A stretch of 64,000 nt of DNA from Bifidobacterium sp. ESL0682 (GTDB lineage: Bacteria > Actinomycetota > Actinomycetes > Actinomycetales > Bifidobacteriaceae): positions 1,178,001-1,242,000 of the forward strand of contig NZ_CP113942.1 of the NCBI RefSeq assembly GCF_029392815.1, in the 5' to 3' direction. The position numbers were made by a program, and so were the translations under genes. The notes under the pieces are model-generated. The model did no database searches, had not been told where the DNA came from, and saw nothing but the letters and a program-made list of their open reading frames with translations. Positions 53,105 to 64,000 of this stretch are shown piece by piece; within the stretch, counting starts at the first letter, position 1; every line of letters starts with the position of its first letter.

Positions 53105-53340
53105 AGTGAACTTCTTTCTTCCATGCCAGAGCCGCAGTGCGGCCGACGTGTATACATACGAAATGTCACTCTACGCGCAGGCAGGTATGAAGAAACGCCT
53201 TTATAAAACAGAGAAGTCTCGGCCGTGCGATTTCTACTATTTGCACAGCCCAAGCCGACAAGTCCAGCACCAATTATAAATTGTATTGCAGTGTCTTTAG
53301 ACATGAATTTATTTGGGTTTAAACAAAGGGTTTGGTTACC

Positions 53341-56300
53341 ATGAGCGTTTTCCGCTACTTTATTGCTTTTGTACTTTGCATTACAACATCATTGAATATC
53401 GCCCCCCCCGCGAAATCTCATGATGTCCCGATAAACCAAAGCAGTCAGACAGCTAGCGCTTCCTCAACATCAACCCATCCCACTTCCTCATCAGTCCAAA
53501 CTCATCCAGCATCGCAAGTCACCAATGATGGTGACCAACACATAGAGCCTTCGGCCCCAGCCAGCCAAGCCGAGACGCAGTCCCCGCAACCAGCGTCGTC
53601 TTCCCTGCAACAGAAAGATGCAGACAATAGCGAACCTTCATCATTGACTCGCTTGAGTCCGGCGACCCCATCACTCGCCGCGCAGCCCAGCCCCATCGAT
53701 GCCTCGAACGTGCAAAACACCAACAGTCGAACGCTCCCGACTCCAAACCCGCAAGGCCAGATCAGCAGTCCGCAACGCTCGCAAGGCCAAGACAATGCCT
53801 CTCAGACCCCAGAAGCCAAGGGAATCAAATCCAGATCCGAAGTCAGCCCCCGCTCCGCCACCTGCACGTCTACCAGCCCAGCGACCTGGGCAGGTTCCAA
53901 CATCCAATGGCACATCTCGGACGACGGCACGGACTGCACCCTCCACGTCAGCGGTGGCACCACACCATCCACGTTCGTTTCCTCCCCGCGGTACGACCAG
54001 GAAACCGTGTATGGCATCACGCAAGTCATCATCGAAGGCAACCTCACCATCCGCAATACTTCGAGCTATCAAGCAGGTGTGTTCGGAGAATTGCAGTATC
54101 TCAAAACCTTCAAGATGGGCAATGGAGCCTCCCTCACCTTCAGCGGAACAGGAGCAATCAATTTATTTTACAGTGGTTACTGGTCGTTATCAGATCTCGA
54201 ATCAGTGGATACGACAGGATGGGATACCAGCCAAGCTACCAGCCTTCACAGCATGTTCGACGGCTGTGGAAACTTGGACTCATTGAACACCACTAATTGG
54301 AACACCAGCCAAGTCACCGACTTCTCAAATATGTTTAATAATTGCAATGATCTTGCCCCAATAGATACCAGCAAGTGGGACACCAGTCGGGCAACCAATA
54401 TGGACAATATGTTCCACTACTGCCGCAGTTGGGAATCCCTGGACATCAGCAACTTCGATACAAGAAACGTCACAACCGCGAATGCCATGATGCCACCAAA
54501 TCTAAAGAAAATCATCCTTGGCACCAACACTGTCCTTCCTCCTTCATCCGTCACATCATCCCATGATGACGATCCGGTGTCCTCTGGCCCAATGGGTTCT
54601 TTAGACCCCAGCCATTGGTGGCGAGAACAAGGTAATTGGTGCCAGCCCCTGGCTCCCACACAGGTCGGACTCGACAAGCCCGCCACTTACGTCCGCGATG
54701 ATGTCGCTATACCTTCGAACGTCAGCTGCGTCATCTTCGCTATCAACCCCAACGGAGGGGTTATGTCCAACGCCGGCACTGGATTCGACAGCGCTCACAC
54801 CGGCGGTACGCTGACCGTCCCCTCTGCAACAAACCTTATCAATAAGAGCGGCTCGTTATTTGCCAACTGGAACACCTCACAAAATGGCAGTGGAACAGCA
54901 TACACCTCAGCTCAACAGTCCATGAGCTATCCAAAAGGCACCAACACGACCGTCACTTTCTACGCGCAATGGTACGACATCCCACTACCCACGTTCAACA
55001 ACATCAAAGTGCACGCACTGACCGGTCAAAACCCGACCTTCGACCTCACCATAAACTCCCAAAGCTCGTTCCAAGCAGGAGACGCAATATCAGCCTATTC
55101 ATCTTCAGGACCTAGTGGACAGAATCAGCTTACTTGGTACTCAACATCCTATGCCATTCCATCAGACGGGTACGCAGGACCCATCATTTTTTCGGCACAA
55201 CCTGTCTCATCACTCGCTAGTCAACAAACCCAGTGGAAAGTTGGTATCGCAGTCCAGCGCAAAACGATAGACCGTAAAACCGGCAGCAGAGCACGATTGC
55301 GCAACTATTTTGCTCGGGATTTTACGATTCCACATGTGACGTTGTCCTTCGACCTGAATACAGGCGACGGCAAAGTACCAGCTATCGTGGAATCTCCAAT
55401 CGACACAGATAGTTCTACGGCCACATTCGCCATCACCCGACTAACGACTATAAGTAAACCCAATTTCGCGTTCGACAAATGGGCCTCCAACGCAGACGGC
55501 TCCGGCAGCAGTGTCTCGCCTGGAGGAAACATCACATTCACGCAAGCCCAATATCAGCCGGACAACAAAGTAACCCTGTACGCGCAATGGCGGATGGTGC
55601 CCTTTGACTCCAGCGTCGCCTATCACCGCGACTCGGACACGGTCACGGCCAGCGGCACCGCACTGCAATACAGCACAATTAATGCCTGCATATCAGCCGA
55701 CACCTGCCAGTCACAAACGATATCCGGCCCGACAACGATGGACAATGTTCAAAGCAACACCCGAAATACCATCACCAGCGTGACCATTGACCCATTAGAC
55801 CCCGGGAACATCACTATCAGCGGAAAAGTGGGCAGTAACATCTTAAACGGCAAAGGCACATTCGGACGTGTGGTCGTTTTTCCTCGATCGCTTGCCTCCA
55901 TTCCCGCTGGAGGTACTGGTATACCCTGCCCCGTTCCGACAACTTCCGACATGTTCCCCGGCACAAGTTGTGGACAAGGAGAGTCTGGTCTTATTTATCC
56001 GCTTAATAGCGGGAAAAACATGTGGACTGTAAAACTCTCCAGTAAAGATTTCATCCAAGCGGGCTATACATATCCTGCACAAGATCCCGCTACAGGTCGC
56101 TGGACTTACGTCACCGTCCCCGATACACCTGAAGCCCCTGGTTTTTATGACATCTACGTGTGCGTACAAGCTTTGGGACCGGCATCTAATTTTACTAATA
56201 TTCTTAAACTCAGAGCTGATTACCCCTACAGGATGGGCACTTCCACAAGCCCGTGGAAGGTGTCGTTCCCAGCAAGCACGTTCATGGCCAAGTTCCCGAT

Positions 56301-57786
56301 AGCCAACCAGTACTCCGTCGATGTCACCGATTCCACAGGCCAGGTAACCGATCCAGCCACAGGCAACCTAGTGGAGAAACTGACGATGAAGGGAACGCTG
56401 CCGTACATGTACGCCCACTACGACGCCAACGGCGCAACCGGAACCACGCCTCCCGACGGAGCCAAGGCGCTCGTGGACACCACGACAAGCAACTCGATCA
56501 ATGTCACCCTGCCCAAGCCGAACGCGCTGGTTAACCCGGCGCACCAACTCTTCACCGGCTGGGCTACAGACAGTACCAGCCCGCCCACCGACGCGTTCCA
56601 GCCAGGTGCGGCCAAGACGTTCGACGTGGGATACTCGCCAGGCGATGTCGGCATCCCAGTCAATGTGTACGCGATTTGGAAGACCTTGGAGGGTCCGACC
56701 ATCGACACAGTGACCACGCACGCACCGACCGGCGCCGACCCAACCATCGATGTCAAAGCGGTCGACTCGAACGCCCACAAAACCGGCGATGCAATCTATC
56801 TGACCTCCCTGAACGGCGCCGGCTATACCAATATCTACACCTACACCAGCGACGGCGACACCGGCAGCAACACATGGACCGGCCTGACTCCCGCTCAGCT
56901 GCGCGCTGGATGGACCGACACCTACGACCTGAAGGCGGACGCGAGCACCACCGACCCCAACACCGGCCAGACTGTGCACAGCGAATACAGTGAGAAGACC
57001 GGCGTGCTGCCCTTCTTCAACATCACCTTCGATGCCAACAGCGCCCACCACGGCGCCGGCGACCCACCCGATGGTATCAAAACCTTGGCCGACACCACCA
57101 ACCAGAGCGCGACGATCATCCTGCCCAAGCCGACCGCCACCATGACGCCCGCAGCCGCGATCTTCACCGGCTGGTCCAAGACCGCCTCGAGCACGGCCCC
57201 CGACATCGGGATGGGCAGCCCCGGCCACCGCCAGATCGTCGTCAACGCCTCCTCCGAAAACGCGGAGACCGACCTGACCTTCTACGCAATCTGGAACACC
57301 GTCGAGGCCCCGGTAGTCACCGGGATGTACAGAAACGCGTCCGACAACACGGTAATTGTCACCGGCACCAGCAAGCCCTGGTCCACCGCTGACAAACCGC
57401 TCGTCGACGTGACAGGACTGGATGGACAGCCCGGCAACACCACCGGAAACCCCGTCACCTTCGACGACAGTCTCCTGCCCTACGACGGCTCCAATACCCA
57501 TCCTTGGACGCTCACCCTCACTGAGGCGCAGCTGCCCAAGGGCGGTAGCTACCGCGTCAAGGCCAAGATCTCACGCAACGAGGACGCCTGGCGCGACCCG
57601 AGCCGCACCGTCGAGGCCAGCGACACCAAGGACTACACCATCCTCAAGCCCTTCCTCCACGGCCTGCCCATGACCGGCGGCATTTGGAGACGGGTCCTGC
57701 CCCTAGGCATCGTTCTCGCTGCTTTGGTCGCCGGACTCGCCATGGTCCTGCGCGACCGGCGACGTCGCCACGCCAGGCGCGCGTAG
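53341..57786 (+). CDS. Giant LPXTG-anchored surface protein with BspA-type repeats and InlB-type repeats (adhesin 1)
   Basis: A 1481-residue protein. A signal peptide (MSVFRYFIAFVLCITTSLN, about 1-28) precedes a Ser/Thr/Pro/Gln-rich stalk to about residue 175. BspA-like DUF285 units (residues about 283-395) repeat the pattern W-D/N-T-S-x-x-T-x-x-x-x-M-F. At least four InlB/Listeria-Bacteroides (Flg_new) repeats follow, ending in FYAQW, TLYAQW, VYAIWK and FYAIWN (near residues 467-545, 667-755, 1022-1117, 1224-1320), with Ig-like linkers between. The sortase signal is LPMTG at 57664-57678, then a hydrophobic helix and the basic tail RDRRRRHARRA. Predicted cell-wall-anchored adhesin for host or polymer contact. 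AAAGGG lies about 10 nt upstream of the ATG. Confidence 0.9.
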   Translation: MSVFRYFIAFVLCITTSLNIAPPAKSHDVPINQSSQTASASSTSTHPTSSSVQTHPASQVTNDGDQHIEPSAPASQAETQSPQPASSSLQQKDADNSEPSSLTRLSPATPSLAAQPSPIDASNVQNTNSRTLPTPNPQGQISSPQRSQGQDNASQTPEAKGIKSRSEVSPRSATCTSTSPATWAGSNIQWHISDDGTDCTLHVSGGTTPSTFVSSPRYDQETVYGITQVIIEGNLTIRNTSSYQAGVFGELQYLKTFKMGNGASLTFSGTGAINLFYSGYWSLSDLESVDTTGWDTSQATSLHSMFDGCGNLDSLNTTNWNTSQVTDFSNMFNNCNDLAPIDTSKWDTSRATNMDNMFHYCRSWESLDISNFDTRNVTTANAMMPPNLKKIILGTNTVLPPSSVTSSHDDDPVSSGPMGSLDPSHWWREQGNWCQPLAPTQVGLDKPATYVRDDVAIPSNVSCVIFAINPNGGVMSNAGTGFDSAHTGGTLTVPSATNLINKSGSLFANWNTSQNGSGTAYTSAQQSMSYPKGTNTTVTFYAQWYDIPLPTFNNIKVHALTGQNPTFDLTINSQSSFQAGDAISAYSSSGPSGQNQLTWYSTSYAIPSDGYAGPIIFSAQPVSSLASQQTQWKVGIAVQRKTIDRKTGSRARLRNYFARDFTIPHVTLSFDLNTGDGKVPAIVESPIDTDSSTATFAITRLTTISKPNFAFDKWASNADGSGSSVSPGGNITFTQAQYQPDNKVTLYAQWRMVPFDSSVAYHRDSDTVTASGTALQYSTINACISADTCQSQTISGPTTMDNVQSNTRNTITSVTIDPLDPGNITISGKVGSNILNGKGTFGRVVVFPRSLASIPAGGTGIPCPVPTTSDMFPGTSCGQGESGLIYPLNSGKNMWTVKLSSKDFIQAGYTYPAQDPATGRWTYVTVPDTPEAPGFYDIYVCVQALGPASNFTNILKLRADYPYRMGTSTSPWKVSFPASTFMAKFPIANQYSVDVTDSTGQVTDPATGNLVEKLTMKGTLPYMYAHYDANGATGTTPPDGAKALVDTTTSNSINVTLPKPNALVNPAHQLFTGWATDSTSPPTDAFQPGAAKTFDVGYSPGDVGIPVNVYAIWKTLEGPTIDTVTTHAPTGADPTIDVKAVDSNAHKTGDAIYLTSLNGAGYTNIYTYTSDGDTGSNTWTGLTPAQLRAGWTDTYDLKADASTTDPNTGQTVHSEYSEKTGVLPFFNITFDANSAHHGAGDPPDGIKTLADTTNQSATIILPKPTATMTPAAAIFTGWSKTASSTAPDIGMGSPGHRQIVVNASSENAETDLTFYAIWNTVEAPVVTGMYRNASDNTVIVTGTSKPWSTADKPLVDVTGLDGQPGNTTGNPVTFDDSLLPYDGSNTHPWTLTLTEAQLPKGGSYRVKAKISRNEDAWRDPSRTVEASDTKDYTILKPFLHGLPMTGGIWRRVLPLGIVLAALVAGLAMVLRDRRRRHARRA
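53402..53409 (+). repeat. Poly-C tract (C8) in the signal-peptide region of adhesin 1
   Basis: Eight C at codons 21-23 (I-A-P-P-A). The frame is intact here. The same position in the adjacent paralog carries six C and is out of frame. Confidence 0.9.
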
Positions 57787-58252
57787 TGGAACCTTTGCGT
57801 GTGACGGCCTCTGACAAAGGTCGCCATACGCACGGGCGCACCTCTACACGCGATAATCCCCACACACGAAGAGCCCACAATAAGCTCTACCCATAGGGGA
57901 CGTGATTGCGGCCAGATTACAAACGACTGTGCCATCCGTCCCCTCCTAACACTTCCCGCCAGGCCACCCAACACCCGGCCCGGCGGGAACACCAACTGGG
58001 TGCCGACGACGGGTTCAAACAAACCCAAACCAACCGACCCGCCGCCGGCACCCACCCTATTTTTTCTACAGACAGCATCACGTTCATTTCCCGCACCCAA
58101 TATGGTTGCTTGGCGTAGATGCGTGACGACCATATGTCAACGAAGACGCATTCATAATGAACAAGACGCAAGCGCTAACAACAAAAACGTTTTGTATCTT
58201 GCGAAGACAGCGCTTACCGAAAGAGCACCTTCATTAAGTTTTGTATCACAAT

Positions 58253-58280
58253 TTGGACACTTTCCAGATTTACACATTAT
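58253..58280 (+). promoter_or_regulatory. Candidate promoter of adhesin 2
   Basis: TTGGAC (58253-58258) and CATTAT (58275-58280), spaced 16 bp, in the AT-rich block upstream of the second adhesin. Confidence 0.35.
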
Positions 58281-58305
58281 GAGATATATGATTAAGTACG
58301 GATAG

Positions 58306-58340
58306 TTATGGAGTGCGCCGCTCCGGCGAACTCCACATAA
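58306..58340 (+). promoter_or_regulatory. Leader hairpin just upstream of adhesin 2
   Basis: Nested pairing CGCCG/CGGCG, GAGT/ACTC and TTATG/CATAA with one mismatch and a 2-nt bulge; the hairpin ends 23 nt before the ATG. There is no U-run, so it is more likely a leader structure than a terminator. Confidence 0.5.
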
Positions 58341-58363
58341 TTCTCTAGGAATTGGGTTTGATC

Positions 58364-61300
58364 ATGGGTATTTTCCGTACAATTGTCGCCTTCGCGCTAT
58401 GTGTCGCGAATACTGCTTTTATCGCGCCCCCCGCGATTTGAGTCCCAAGAACTAAACTCCGCATCCGCGGCACAGTCGCCGCGCACCACCGCTGACGCAA
58501 CAGCTTCCAGCCATTCCTCAACTCAATCGGGCAATACCGCCCATCCAGACAGAACTACTTCCCTAACTTCTTCGGGCAATGTCCGCTCCGCTTCGGAGGC
58601 CGAGCCGAACACAAGTGCCACATCCCGGCAACCAACGACCACGCAATCCCCTCGCAGACGCCACAGTCCCAATCAGCACCGTCACCGTTACAAGGACAGT
58701 CGCCCTCCGGCATAGGTCAAAGCCGACTTCCATCCCCGTCATCGCCGCTACAGTCTTCCGGTATCACATCCACACCCCCAGCATCCGCAAACAAGCAGGA
58801 TGCTACTTCGGGATCAGGTTCCAACCCGCTGCTGCGCGGGGGCGTGACACCACAGACACCATCCCTGCCATCGCTCGGCTCACCGGTAGACGGCCAGTCC
58901 GGCATCAGCCTGCGCGACTCCAACCCCCAGGTCACCGGCTTCACGCAAAACAGCGATGGCACCATCACCATCACCGGCACCGCCACCCACCTCTTCATAC
59001 CCACATACAACCCCGGCTCCTGGTCAGGCGGCACATGGTGGGAATCCGGAGGCACCGTCATCGCCATCTACACCTGCCGCACCGGCATTGACTCCGTCCC
59101 CCTCAACTGCACCAGGATATGGGCGCAGCCAGAGAACGTGTTCCCCGCAACCCCGACCTACGCGAATACAACCAACTCGACCTCCACGCCTGGTACCCAA
59201 ACGGGAAAAGCAGCAACAACTACGGCGTCATCAAACGCACCGTCTACCAAAACGACCCGTTCAACTGGACCGCCAACCTCGACAGCAGCTGGTTCAACGG
59301 CGCAGGAACCTACGACATCTACGCCCAGCTCGAGACCGTCGGCCGGTTCTCACAGCCCTTCAGCAGCCTTCTCCCCTACGACCAGCAGACCGCCCCCATC
59401 GTGACCATCCGCACTGGCGTCCCCTACGGGGGCGTCAACCTGCACCTCGATCCCAACAGCGGCCAAGGCGGCTACGGGTCCGTCAACGACCAATGGCGGA
59501 ACCTGGCCGGGTCCGGCTGGGCATCCTTCACCCTGCCCACCAGCAACGGCATGGCCAACACCGGTAACAAGCTCTTCACCGGATGGAACACCCGCGCCGA
59601 CGGCAACGGCACCCAATACAACGCCGGAAGCACATACAGCGCCTACACCTCCACCGGTCAGACATTGACCCTCTACGCCCAATGGCGGAGCGTCAACAGC
59701 CCGTCCATCAGCGGCACATCGCGCACCAGCCGCACCCAGATGACCGTCAACGGCTATAGCCAGCCCTTCACCAGCTCGGACCAAATCAAGGTCTGCTCCA
59801 AACCCTCCAGCTGGGCCGAGTCCGAAAACAACTACACCTGCACCACCGTCAACCCATCCAGCTACGGCAGCTACGACGGCAGCACCAGCCACTACTGGTC
59901 CACCAACATCAGCCCCTACAACTTCCCGACCGGCGGCACCTACACTGTCCGCGCCCGCATGCAGTCCTGGGATTCGGCCAACAGCCGCTGGGTATGGAGT
60001 GACGCCACCCGAACCACGGTGACCTACACCGTCTACCCCTCCCAGATCACCCTCCAGCCCAACACCGCCGCCGGCGGCCAGGGCGCCGCGCAGACCCAGA
60101 GCCTTAACCCCGACAGCGGCGGCCATGCGACCTTCACGCTGCACGACCCCACTTATTACTTCACCAACACGAACAGCCATGCCACCTCGACCGGTTGGAG
60201 CACCAACGCCTACGCCCTAGACGCGGCGGGCGCCACGAACACGAACAGCCAGACGGGCCCGTTCACCCTCACTCCGCCCGAGGCACGCACCCTCTACCCA
60301 GTGTGGCAGACCGTCAAACAGCCGACATTCGCCTCCGTCACCCGGCAGTCCGACCAGACGCTCACCGTGACTGGATCAGCCAAGCCCATCAGCGCCAACG
60401 ATACCGTCGAAATATGCTCCGCCACCCCAGGCACGGCCAGCACACCCAACTGGGGCAACTGCGCGAGCGCAACGCCCTACACCGGCACCACCCCCGACGG
60501 GCAGGCCAGCCAACCATGGACCCTTACCGGCGTCGCTACACCCAGCAGCGACTACTACTGGCTGCGCATACGCCTCGGCCACCAGAGCGAACGCGGCACC
60601 ACCTGGAGCAGTGAACAGTACGCCGCCGGACCCGACACCACCTGGAAGTTCCACCCCAACACCGCCCAAGGCGGTCAGGGCGACGACCAGACCGTCACCG
60701 CCACGCCCAACGCCACCACCGGCCTGAGCACCACCACCATGCCCAAACCCGACACCGTAGGCGGCACCGACGGCTACACCAACACCGACCTCCACAAGGT
60801 CTTCGACGGCTGGAACACCGATCAGAACGCCACCACCGGCGATCCGACCCTGAACCCCGGTCGCACCGCCACCAGCCCCGGCGGACCCACCGACCGCTAC
60901 GCCATCTGGCGCACCGTGCTCGCCCCCACCATCACCAGCACAATCCGCCAGACCGACGGTACACTGAAGATCAGCGGAAGCAGCACACCCCTCAAGTCCG
61001 GCGACACCGTCACCGCCTGCACCAAAGAGACCAACAACCCGGTCGCCATGGCGAACTGCCAAAGCATTGCCATCCCTGACAACCCAGCCGGAACAAGCAA
61101 CGCGTACGACGGCACCACCCCGCACGCATGGACCATCACCCTTCCCGCCGCCTGGTACACCAACACCAGCTTCGGCACCGGCTACACCATTACCGCCTTC
61201 ACGACCAGCAAAGACTCCTGGCGCGGCGACGGCACCAACACCGTCAACAGCGCCGAGGCCAACGGCACATACACACGCCCGGCCGTCACGCTAACCCTCG

Positions 61301-64000
61301 ACCCGAACGCAGGCACAGGTGCAAGCCAAGGTGGTTCCGGCACCCTAACCGACACCAACTGGACCGACAACGCACAATCCCTGTGGTCCGACGCCGGCGG
61401 CACCGTGACGTTCACCTACCCGTCCAGCGCAGGCATGAGCGCCCCAGGCAAGCTGTTCCTCGGCTGGGCCGAGAACCCCACCGACACCACGCCCAGCAAG
61501 ACCGCCGGCCAGACCGAAACGTTCACCCAAACCTCCGGCACCCGCACGATTACCCGCTATGCGGTGTGGAAGGCCTTAGACGCACCCACCGGCGTCACCG
61601 CTACATGGAAGCGCTCCACCAACAAAGTCACGTTTACCGCCTCGGGGTTGCCGAGCGCCGCCACCGGCTGGCAAATCCGGTACAAGCCCAACAGCAGCCA
61701 GTACGGGTGGCACGTTCCGAGCTGCGCACCGGCATTAACAAGCTCCTGCGAGGTGTATGCCTACAACGATTTCACGCCGGGCGCCACATGGATAGCCCAG
61801 CTACGCTCGACCTCAAGAGACAGCACTGGAGCTACCGCCACCAGCGCATGGAGCAGCGACATCACCGGAGTCCTGCCCTACATGGACGCCACCCTCAAGC
61901 CCGGGTCGGGCACCGGCCCAGCACCGGATCCACACGTGAAAGCCCTGCTCGACAAGACCGACGGCAAAGCTGACCTGACCCTGCCCACCGCTGCGGACAA
62001 AGGCATGACACCTCCCACGTCCATGAAGTTCGACCAGTGGAACACCGCCGGCGACGGATCTGGCACAAGCTACCAGAACGGCCCGGTCACCATTCCCGCA
62101 AGCCTCGGCATCCCGGACGGGCAGGCCACCCGCCTGACCCTCTACGCCCAATGGAAGCCAAGCACGCCCACCGCCACGCCCGGCCATTGCGAGGACACCG
62201 CCGGCTGGCACACCTGGGGCGGCCCCGGCCAACCGACACCGGGCCTCATTCCTCCGGTGCCCGAAGCCGTGTGCTGGACCATCGACAACGGCGACACCCT
62301 GCGCCTGTCCGGAGGCACCAGCCCCAACTACTACGGATATACAGACATCCCCTGGATTGCACGGAAAAGTGGCATCACTAGAATCAGCATCGAGGGTGAT
62401 CTCACCCTCACCACCAGTAGCTACGCCGGCAACGGCCCCCTCAACAACATGTCCGCGCTCACCGCAATGGACAACGGACATCATACCGTAACCCTCGATG
62501 GGAAAGCCGGCTATTACCTCTTCTACAACGACTCCGCCTTGCAATCATTGGACCTGAGCGATTGGAAAACCAGCACCCTCACCAATATGACGGTCATGTT
62601 CACCGAATGCACCAGATTGTCGCGGCTGACCGGCCTAGAGAATTGGGACACAGGCAATGTTACCGATATGACCCAAACGTTCGGCTACGACCAGGCGCTC
62701 ACCAGCCTCGACCTCAGCGGTTGGGACACCAGCAATGTCACAGACCTGAGGTCGATGTTCAACGACTCCGGTATCATCGACCTCGATCTGACCGGCTGGG
62801 ACACCAGCAAGGCCCTAGCCTCCGGCACCTACAACATGGCCAGCATGATGCCCGCCAACTTACAACGTTTCCGGCTCGGCGAGCACACCCGATTCGCCGC
62901 CAACACTCTCAACGGCCTCGACCCCTCGCACACTTGGACAAAATGGGATTGGCCCAAAGGCCACCACCCCTCCAACCCCAGAATCGTCGGCAATCTCACC
63001 GGCCTCCAGACGAACACCACCTCCGCCACACCCCAAGGCACTTATGTGCGCGACGACGTAACCATCACTTACGTCGATCTCAAATACGACCTGGCCGGCG
63101 GCACTGGGGACGCCAGCCTGCCCACGCAGGCGAGCACCACCGACAGCAACGGCCTCGCCATCGACACCACCTTCCAGCCCGGCACCTACACCGTCCCCGA
63201 CACCGCCACGGCTCATATCACTGCCAACAAACCCAACAACCTGTTCAACGGCTGGGCCTATGACACCATCGGAGTCACCGGCGGTGCGGCTACGGTGAGC
63301 AACCACACAATCACAGCGCCAAAAGGCACAGGAGGCACCGCCACTGTCAAGGCCGTCTGGAGCACAATCGCGGAGGCCGTCACCGCTGCGCCCCAGGTCG
63401 CCATCGACACCCACGCCACCGACAAGGGCACCGCCACCGTCGCAGCGACCGCCCCGCTCAGTGCGGCCCTGCCGGCACTTGGCTGGATGCCGGCGTCCGG
63501 CACCGATCCTGGCCGAGTCCCCCAGCCCGCCGTGAACGCCGGAGGAACGGTGACCGTCTGTGTGAAACCCTCCAGTCAGACCGGCGCCTACACCGGCGGG
63601 CAATGCCACACCAAGACGAGCTCCACCGCGGGCAGCCAGACGGTCACTCCCGACGCGTTCACTCTGCCCGGCTCACTCACCGCAGGACAGGACACCACCT
63701 TCCCCGAACCCGGCGAAAGCTACGTGATGACGGCCTCGTACACGACCACCGACCCGATCACGCGCAACAGCATCACCAGCGACGCCACTGCCGCGGGTGG
63801 CGGGCTCGTCTCGGGAACCCTGCCATGGGTGGATGCATCGTTCGACGCCAACAGCATGCACGGCGGCGCCGGCACACCCCCAGGCGACCTGAAGTCCCTA
63901 GTCGACACCGGCAGTAGCAAGGCCTGGATCCAACTGCCCTACGCCACCGCGAGCATGGCACCCGCCCACGCCGTGTTCGCCGGCTGGTCCGCCAGCAGCG
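58364..64000 (+). CDS. Second giant surface protein, paralog of adhesin 1, 3' end outside window, three frame changes
   Basis: The start MGIFRTIVAFALCVANTAF at 58364 mirrors adhesin 1, but the frame stops at 58439-58441 after the C6 tract 58427-58432 (net +1 or -2 shift). The coding sense continues in a Ser/Thr/Pro/Gln-rich stalk. One missing C at 58648-58651 and one at 59143-59146 lead into a frame open from about 59150 to the window end, more than 1600 codons. This part has at least seven InlB-type repeats (ends such as TLYAQWRS, YAIWRT, YAVWKA), a BspA/DUF285 block at about 62400-62870 (WDTGNVTDM, WDTSNVTDL), then more InlB repeats. The sortase motif must lie beyond the window. Confidence 0.8.
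58427..58432 (+). repeat. Poly-C tract (C6) in the signal-peptide region of adhesin 2
   Basis: Six C at the position equivalent to the C8 tract of adhesin 1. The downstream frame closes eight nt later. Losing one C, or gaining two (C8 as in the paralog), would open the frame into the stalk. Confidence 0.85.

Follow-up and report, generated by a model that had tools for sequence, protein, structure and literature searches.

The window analysed here, a 64-kb stretch of the Bifidobacterium sp. ESL0682 genome (G000:C1:1178001-1242000; G000 denotes this genome, one contig of 2,093,512 bp), ends in two tandem genes for giant surface proteins, adhesins 1 and 2, each of which carries a run of C at the end of its signal peptide region. 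We propose that every tract-bearing gene of the family to which both belong is an independent contingency locus, a slipped-strand ON/OFF switch that stood mostly at OFF in the sequenced cultures, and we consider this reading probable. It is supported by the recurrence of the tract at one place, by the frame relations, by intact bodies behind the break and by tract-free paralogs that are in frame, and it has a precedent within the genus in the pilus G tracts of B. breve UCC2003.

In the proposed mechanism, a short, conserved cassette would provide a promoter-like sequence, a leader, the ATG and a signal peptide of about 20 residues with a conserved Cys, ending in a C run that codes for Pro-Pro(-Pro). 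Slippage of the replicating polymerase would add a C to the run or remove one. At a length that fits modulo 3, translation would continue from the signal peptide into a giant PARCEL/DUF285 protein, rich in Ser/Thr and anchored by LPXTG, which would then be displayed; at the other lengths, translation would end within 24-64 codons and display would fail. We infer that tract length changes in living cells, that the family proteins act as adhesins, and that most members stand at OFF in culture while a host selects for ON.

Tract placement and reading frames in the cassette family

The C8 tract of adhesin 1 (53402-53409, in frame) and the C6 tract of adhesin 2 (58427-58432, out of frame) are the sole C runs of at least 6 in the 64-kb window, and G runs of at least 6 are absent from it. 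Their coordinates, lengths and frames had been given correctly in an earlier, sequence-only reading of this DNA, which had also placed the tract at the classic position for ON/OFF switching. The whole genome bears out this second point. Of 20 C/G runs of at least 6 in the 2.09 Mb, 11 lie in one paralogous signal peptide, as do three (C8, C8 and C11) of the five sites of at least 7. Under the generous assumption that 5% of all positions fall on the sense strand within the first 120 nt of a gene, the chance of such enrichment is P(>=11 of 20) = 5e-10 and P(>=3 of 5) = 0.001. Long homopolymers inside reading frames, as they characterise contingency loci, thus occur here above chance, and the placement of the tracts is beyond chance. 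The remaining two sites of at least 7 are one within 23S rRNA and a G7 run (G000:C1:240248-240254, L047) 76 codons into a different secreted, Ser-rich gene, at which the frame changes; this run is a candidate for a further switch outside the family, or else an assembly error.

A DNA model of the leader and signal peptide with the tract omitted (R1; 91 positions, no structure), trained on 24 of 34 leader pieces taken from G000, G004 and G047 and none from G057, was searched against 112 genomes of the genus, one per species, so that tract lengths are compared between species and paralogs only. At E <= 0.001 and with strict filters, R1 matched G004 16 times, G000 14 times, G047 and G057 eight times each, G053 five times, G002 twice and G093 and G106 once each; the other 104 of the 112 genomes gave no match. 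The sequence-only reading had treated the switch as a matter of two genes. With 14 members in G000 alone, 11 of them with a tract, this is too narrow. An exact search of viral contigs with two cassette strings gave 0 and 0 matches.

Frames were read for 53 of the 55 R1 matches (all but the single ones in G093 and G106), and 51 were classified; in two G053 matches the expected ATG is absent. G000, G004, G047 and G057 are the four Bifidobacterium genomes with the cassette, and the tract recurs there in 37 members. Three of the 11 tract genes of G000 are in frame (C8, C8, C11) and eight are out of frame, all with C6 (seven need +2, one needs +1). None of the 14 in G004 is in frame (C9 in six, C8 in six, C7 in two; 12 need +1, two need +2), nor any of the six in G047 (all C10, all needing +1) or the six in G057 (C10 in five, C7 in one, all needing +1). 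The nine tract-free members (three in G000 and two in each of the other three genomes) are all open through the signal peptide, although one of the two in G004 is a weak match with a different kind of start, and two of the three in G000 break later, like other genes of that assembly. The tract thus separates out-of-frame from in-frame members: the frame is kept in 3 of 37 tract genes versus 9 of 9 tract-free ones (p = 2e-7, a guide only, as members are related). In the tract-free genes of G000 the run is interrupted, e.g. as CCCCTCG or CCGTCG, which would be expected of locked-on alleles. Outside these four genomes, the weak matches give a mixed picture; in G053, one is open with a proper start and two have doubtful starts. 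G053 also holds a C11 family member with a GTG start that is out of frame and needs +2 (L102), as well as a G13 run, likewise out of frame, behind another signal peptide (L427); both have the phase opposite to that of most tracts in G004, G047 and G057.

By these reading-frame tables, tract length decides between a truncated and a full product. Of the 15 tract genes in the G004, G047 and G057 tandem arrays, 14 were followed to their end; behind the tract break their bodies run for 1590-2197 codons, with LPLTGG present and no further break. Outside the arrays there are 11 tract genes; ten are open to the end of the stretch read (666-1000 codons), and one, in G004, ends after 257. Because the bodies behind the break are intact, most OFF genes do not appear to be decaying. 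Among eight bodies scanned, DUF285 scored above the cut-off in six (P0001, P0002, two bodies of L207, L211 and L333), stayed under it in L213 (G004) and gave no match in L048 (G000); TIGR02167 was above the cut-off in all four bodies scanned for it.

Between G047 and G057, five pairs of presumed orthologs share 95-99% identity over the 150 nt before the tract and only 59-77% over the 300-1500 nt behind it, a conserved switch with diverging cargo, as would be expected if a common switch served diversifying surface heads. Four of the pairs have C10/C10 tracts; the fifth, with leaders of 95% identity, has C10/C7. Length therefore differs between related alleles, namely C7 versus C10 between presumed orthologs and C7-C9 or C6-C11 among paralogs, subject to assembly error.

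Tracts at signal peptides also occur beyond the R1 family. A fourth relative, G024, has the same layout with different signal peptides, and its leaders lack an R1 match; it carries 17 poly-C signal-peptide tracts of four signal-peptide kinds, all out of frame (by eye), and three poly-G ones, of which one is in frame. In G047 and G057, a second family (L128, L130, L131, L140, L141, L142) carries its run, G10 or G11, within the signal peptide and ahead of the hydrophobic core; the five G10 members are out of frame and the one G11 member is in frame. We applied a mechanical criterion of signal-peptide linkage to C/G tracts of at least 8, which is not free of false positives (probably among them L189 in G024). 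Linked tracts made up 12/14 in G004, 9/13 in G047, 8/10 in G057 and 20/35 in G024, and 4/12 in G033, 3/13 in G049, 3/23 in G038 and 1/24 in G008, with 20 loci sampled each from the 50 and 85 sites of G038 and G008. Control C5/G5 runs at the same loci were linked in 23/191 cases. Nine more genomes gave 9/60 in sum (G094 0/6, G093 0/6, G028 0/4, G054 1/4, G096 1/10, G027 1/6, G006 1/4, G053 4/18 with a nineteenth site without a locus, and G002 1/2). Placement at signal peptides is thus a strong habit of a few related genomes, not a general trait of the genus. The C/G runs of at least 8 in G038 and G008 lie mostly away from signal peptides in the loci sampled.

Layout of the two adhesin genes

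Adhesin 1 (53341..57786, forward strand, like all features described here) encodes 1481 aa, with a Ser/Thr/Pro-rich start, a PARCEL/DUF285 head, Listeria-Bacteroides repeats and an LPMTG anchor. Directly 5' of its start codon lies the leader AAAGGGTTTGGTTACC (53325..53340), a putative ribosome-binding region, and a similar motif precedes the ATG in aligned family members. Signal peptide 1, MSVFRYFIAFVLCITTSLNIAPPA (53341..53412), is matched by R1 at G000:1231317-1231400 and belonged to the training set of the model; the C8 tract at its end is in frame in the G000 assembly. The DUF285 (PF03382)/PARCEL region covers residues 289-384 (54205..54492; PF03382 3e-19, TIGR02167 2.8e-18). At about 57664-57678 follows the LPMTG motif, which together with a hydrophobic stretch and the positively charged tail RDRRRRHARRA makes up a sortase anchor. 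The gene metK, identified by Pfam, neighbours the adhesin locus.

Between the two genes, an inverted repeat with 18-nt arms (89% complementary) and a subsequent T run (57997..58054) forms a likely terminator. Adhesin 2 is preceded by the leader AATTGGGTTTGATC (58350..58363). In its OFF reading, translation from the ATG at 58364 gives signal peptide 2, MGIFRTIVAFALCVANTAFIAPPAI, and stops after 25 codons, behind the C6 tract, at the TGA at 58439-58441 (58364..58441). The body of the protein (58431..64000) falls into three frame segments, from 58431 to ~58645, then to ~59140, then in the 59119 frame past the window end. The path changes from frame 0 to +1 at C6, where +2 or -1 base would be the correction, and by -1 near 58645 and again near 59140. 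These two later shifts, both at C4 runs, look like assembly errors. The 59119 frame holds a DUF285/PARCEL region at its residues 1134-1233 (62518..62817; PF03382 7.4e-21) and extends to G000:1242513, where the sorting signal stands in a different frame, so that the LPXTG motif is split by a frame break. We do not favour adhesin 2 as a pseudogene, since its later shifts sit at C4 runs, as other errors do, and relatives carry this layout intact.

The two signal peptides had been described as near-identical. They are paralogous, but with 12 of 24 residues identical the description is overstated. It had also been suggested that the cell could alternate between the two adhesins. We rejected such a two-gene alternation, since the genome has 14 members and we saw no coupling: each gene follows a promoter-like leader of its own (by eye), and the hairpin that separates them resembles a terminator, so any switching would be independent.

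Uniform phase, assembly error and rival explanations

In four G000 paralogs (L052, L217, L218 and L054), the frame breaks in the codons of the LPLTG motif, which read CTCCCCTGACC in three and CTCCCCTCACC in one. Relatives have C5 or an interrupted run at these codons, and the G000 paralogs read C4. Given this loss in four LPLTG codons, a systematic assembly error, the longer C runs of G000 are suspect as well. The tracts themselves and their positions can be relied on; the ON/OFF states of adhesins 1 and 2 in this assembly are untrustworthy. Homopolymer error had been named as a confounder from the outset, with good reason, and the picture of adhesin 1 as ON and adhesin 2 as OFF in the cell finds no support in an assembly that undercalls C runs. 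After the losses in the LPLTG codons had been found, we rejected reading switch states off this assembly. Elsewhere in G000, one 23S rRNA site reads G7 at G000:C1:141451-141457 and G6 at 149648-149653 in the other copy, and a G6 run at G000:C1:10139-10144 (L043) marks a frame break, probably an assembly error, in a gene reading like gyrA (named by eye).

Several points weigh against switching tracts. With C runs undercalled in G000, its C6 tracts may be C7 or more. Of the two G002 matches, one, weak and tract-free, runs into a stop after 35 codons; the other is open. Moreover, the phase is nearly uniform: among the C/G tracts of at least 8 in G004, G024, G047 and G057, 45 need +1, one needs +2 and three are in frame (one of them probably a false hit). 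A free random walk would mix both OFF phases, with a probability of 1e-12 for this outcome if the loci were independent, which paralogs are not. A systematic undercall of one base, or a programmed frameshift, would account for the uniform phase no less well. Run lengths in the relatives include few 7s and more of 8-10, and since these stretches were chosen for their tracts, we give the distribution no weight.

The uniform phase allows three readings: the consensus is one base short, the true resting state lies one slip below ON, or frameshifting is programmed. A resting state below ON could result from recent descent from ON together with a contraction bias, or from selection against expression in culture. 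By analogy with B. breve, we place true OFF states first. We also advance, tentatively and with more doubt than the switch itself, a bolder version, in which a bifidobacterial lineage would keep a large set of giant surface proteins silent behind copies of one mass-produced cassette, and dozens of loci across several species would rest exactly one base below ON. Either single-base expansion in the host would turn on one gene at a time, with very many surface combinations as the outcome, or the fixed offset would be read through by programmed frameshifting.

The most serious rival is a sequencing artefact, by which the C runs would be real, the consensus one (sometimes two) C short, and the genes all in frame and expressed constitutively with a Pro-rich linker. 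That 45 of the 46 shifted tracts in the four relatives lie exactly one base below the in-frame length speaks for it, as do the C4 runs in the LPLTG codons of four G000 paralogs, the two -1 shifts at C4 runs in adhesin 2, and the B. breve tract deposited as G11 that was G12 in 59% of molecules (PMC9187656). On the other hand, the array bodies of G004, G047 and G057 are unbroken over 1590-2197 codons, long in-frame tracts exist in the same assemblies (G9 behind a signal peptide in G024, L188; G11 in G057, L142), and the C11 member of G053 sits in the other phase. Nor would an artefact explain why C8-C11 persist at one place while tract-free paralogs interrupt the run. We regard it as unlikely.

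Programmed recoding, in which the offset is fixed and the C run would let a low, constant fraction of full-length protein arise through -1 ribosomal frameshifting or slippage in transcription, appears improbable to us. RNA polymerase slippage favours A/T runs, and -1 frameshifting on a C run is an uncommon signal. Recoding would account for the identical correction needed by 45 of 46 shifted tracts in four genomes and for an offset kept across the change from C10 to C7 and across a substitution in G024 (L166) by which the run grows to C10. It agrees poorly with the three in-frame members of G000 and the +2 needed by seven of the other eight there, by two G004 paralogs and by the G053 member, and with the B. 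breve tracts, which were shown to vary in DNA (PMC9187656). Least credible of all is a family of decaying adhesin pseudogenes that a mutational hotspot has inactivated. In its favour, 34 of 37 tract genes have lost the frame and one G004 body ends after 257 codons, but array bodies intact over 1590-2197 codons with their sorting signals are hardly to be expected after long neglect, and leaders and signal peptides have stayed 95-99% identical between presumed orthologs with bodies diverged to 59-77%.

Significance and comparison with known systems

If the tracts vary as the contingency-locus reading proposes, the 6 to 14 cassette genes of a single commensal clone could give rise to hundreds to thousands of different surface combinations, and genes of this kind would tend to be annotated as broken. 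The family offers a testable route to how bifidobacteria choose adhesion targets; the published case that we found in the genus concerns one or two pilus switches per genome.

Repeats in signal-peptide codons that turn translation ON and OFF are established for pilC and opa of Neisseria and for outer-membrane genes of Helicobacter. In contrast to the present family, these are unrelated bacteria and proteins, partly with other repeat units.

The closest parallel is B. breve UCC2003. According to the sections of the report drawn on here (PMC9187656), two sortase-dependent pilus loci, bbr_0113 and bbr_1889, carry G11 and G10 between the frames of signal peptide and body, and strains with the tract put in frame made pili. 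Molecule-counted sequencing gave 37% G11, 59% G12 and 3% G10 at one locus and 93.4% G10 and 6.5% G9 at the other, and mouse passage enriched the ON lengths (PMC9187656). As in the cassette family, a signal-peptide reading frame and an LPXTG body lie in separate frames across a long C/G run, in the same genus. Those switches are likewise mostly OFF in culture and independent, with runs of 9-11 in B. breve strains and 8-13 in the genus table of that report. Unlike the 6 to 14 cassette genes found here, these sections describe one or two tract-bearing pilus clusters per genome, with G on the coding strand and -1 as the productive change, whereas the common cassette has C and nearly all tracts of the relatives need +1.

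In Gardnerella, the parts of the report that we used describe many C/G tracts of at least 8 next to surface proteins that have InlB B-repeats and LPXTG; Sanger sequencing showed one such tract to vary (PMC11287997). Such tracts adjoin LPXTG surface genes as in the present family. However, about 70% of the G/C tracts there lie upstream of annotated genes, the genes are mixed, and a common signal-peptide cassette is not described in those parts (PMC11287997). Honeybee-gut bifidobacteria have tandem surface proteins with RCC1 repeats, Listeria-Bacteroides repeats and LPxTG (PMC4449606), and these arrays resemble ours as tandem sets of large, diverse, LPxTG-anchored proteins with Listeria-Bacteroides repeats. 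They differ in their RCC1 heads, and the main text of that paper is without the words frameshift or phase (PMC4449606). Among the open-licence papers covered, poly-C signal-peptide switches have not been reported for this group. The principle of the switch is thus known; its use on so large a gene family appears to be new, and differs from the known cases in scale, in the common cassette and in the proteins carried.

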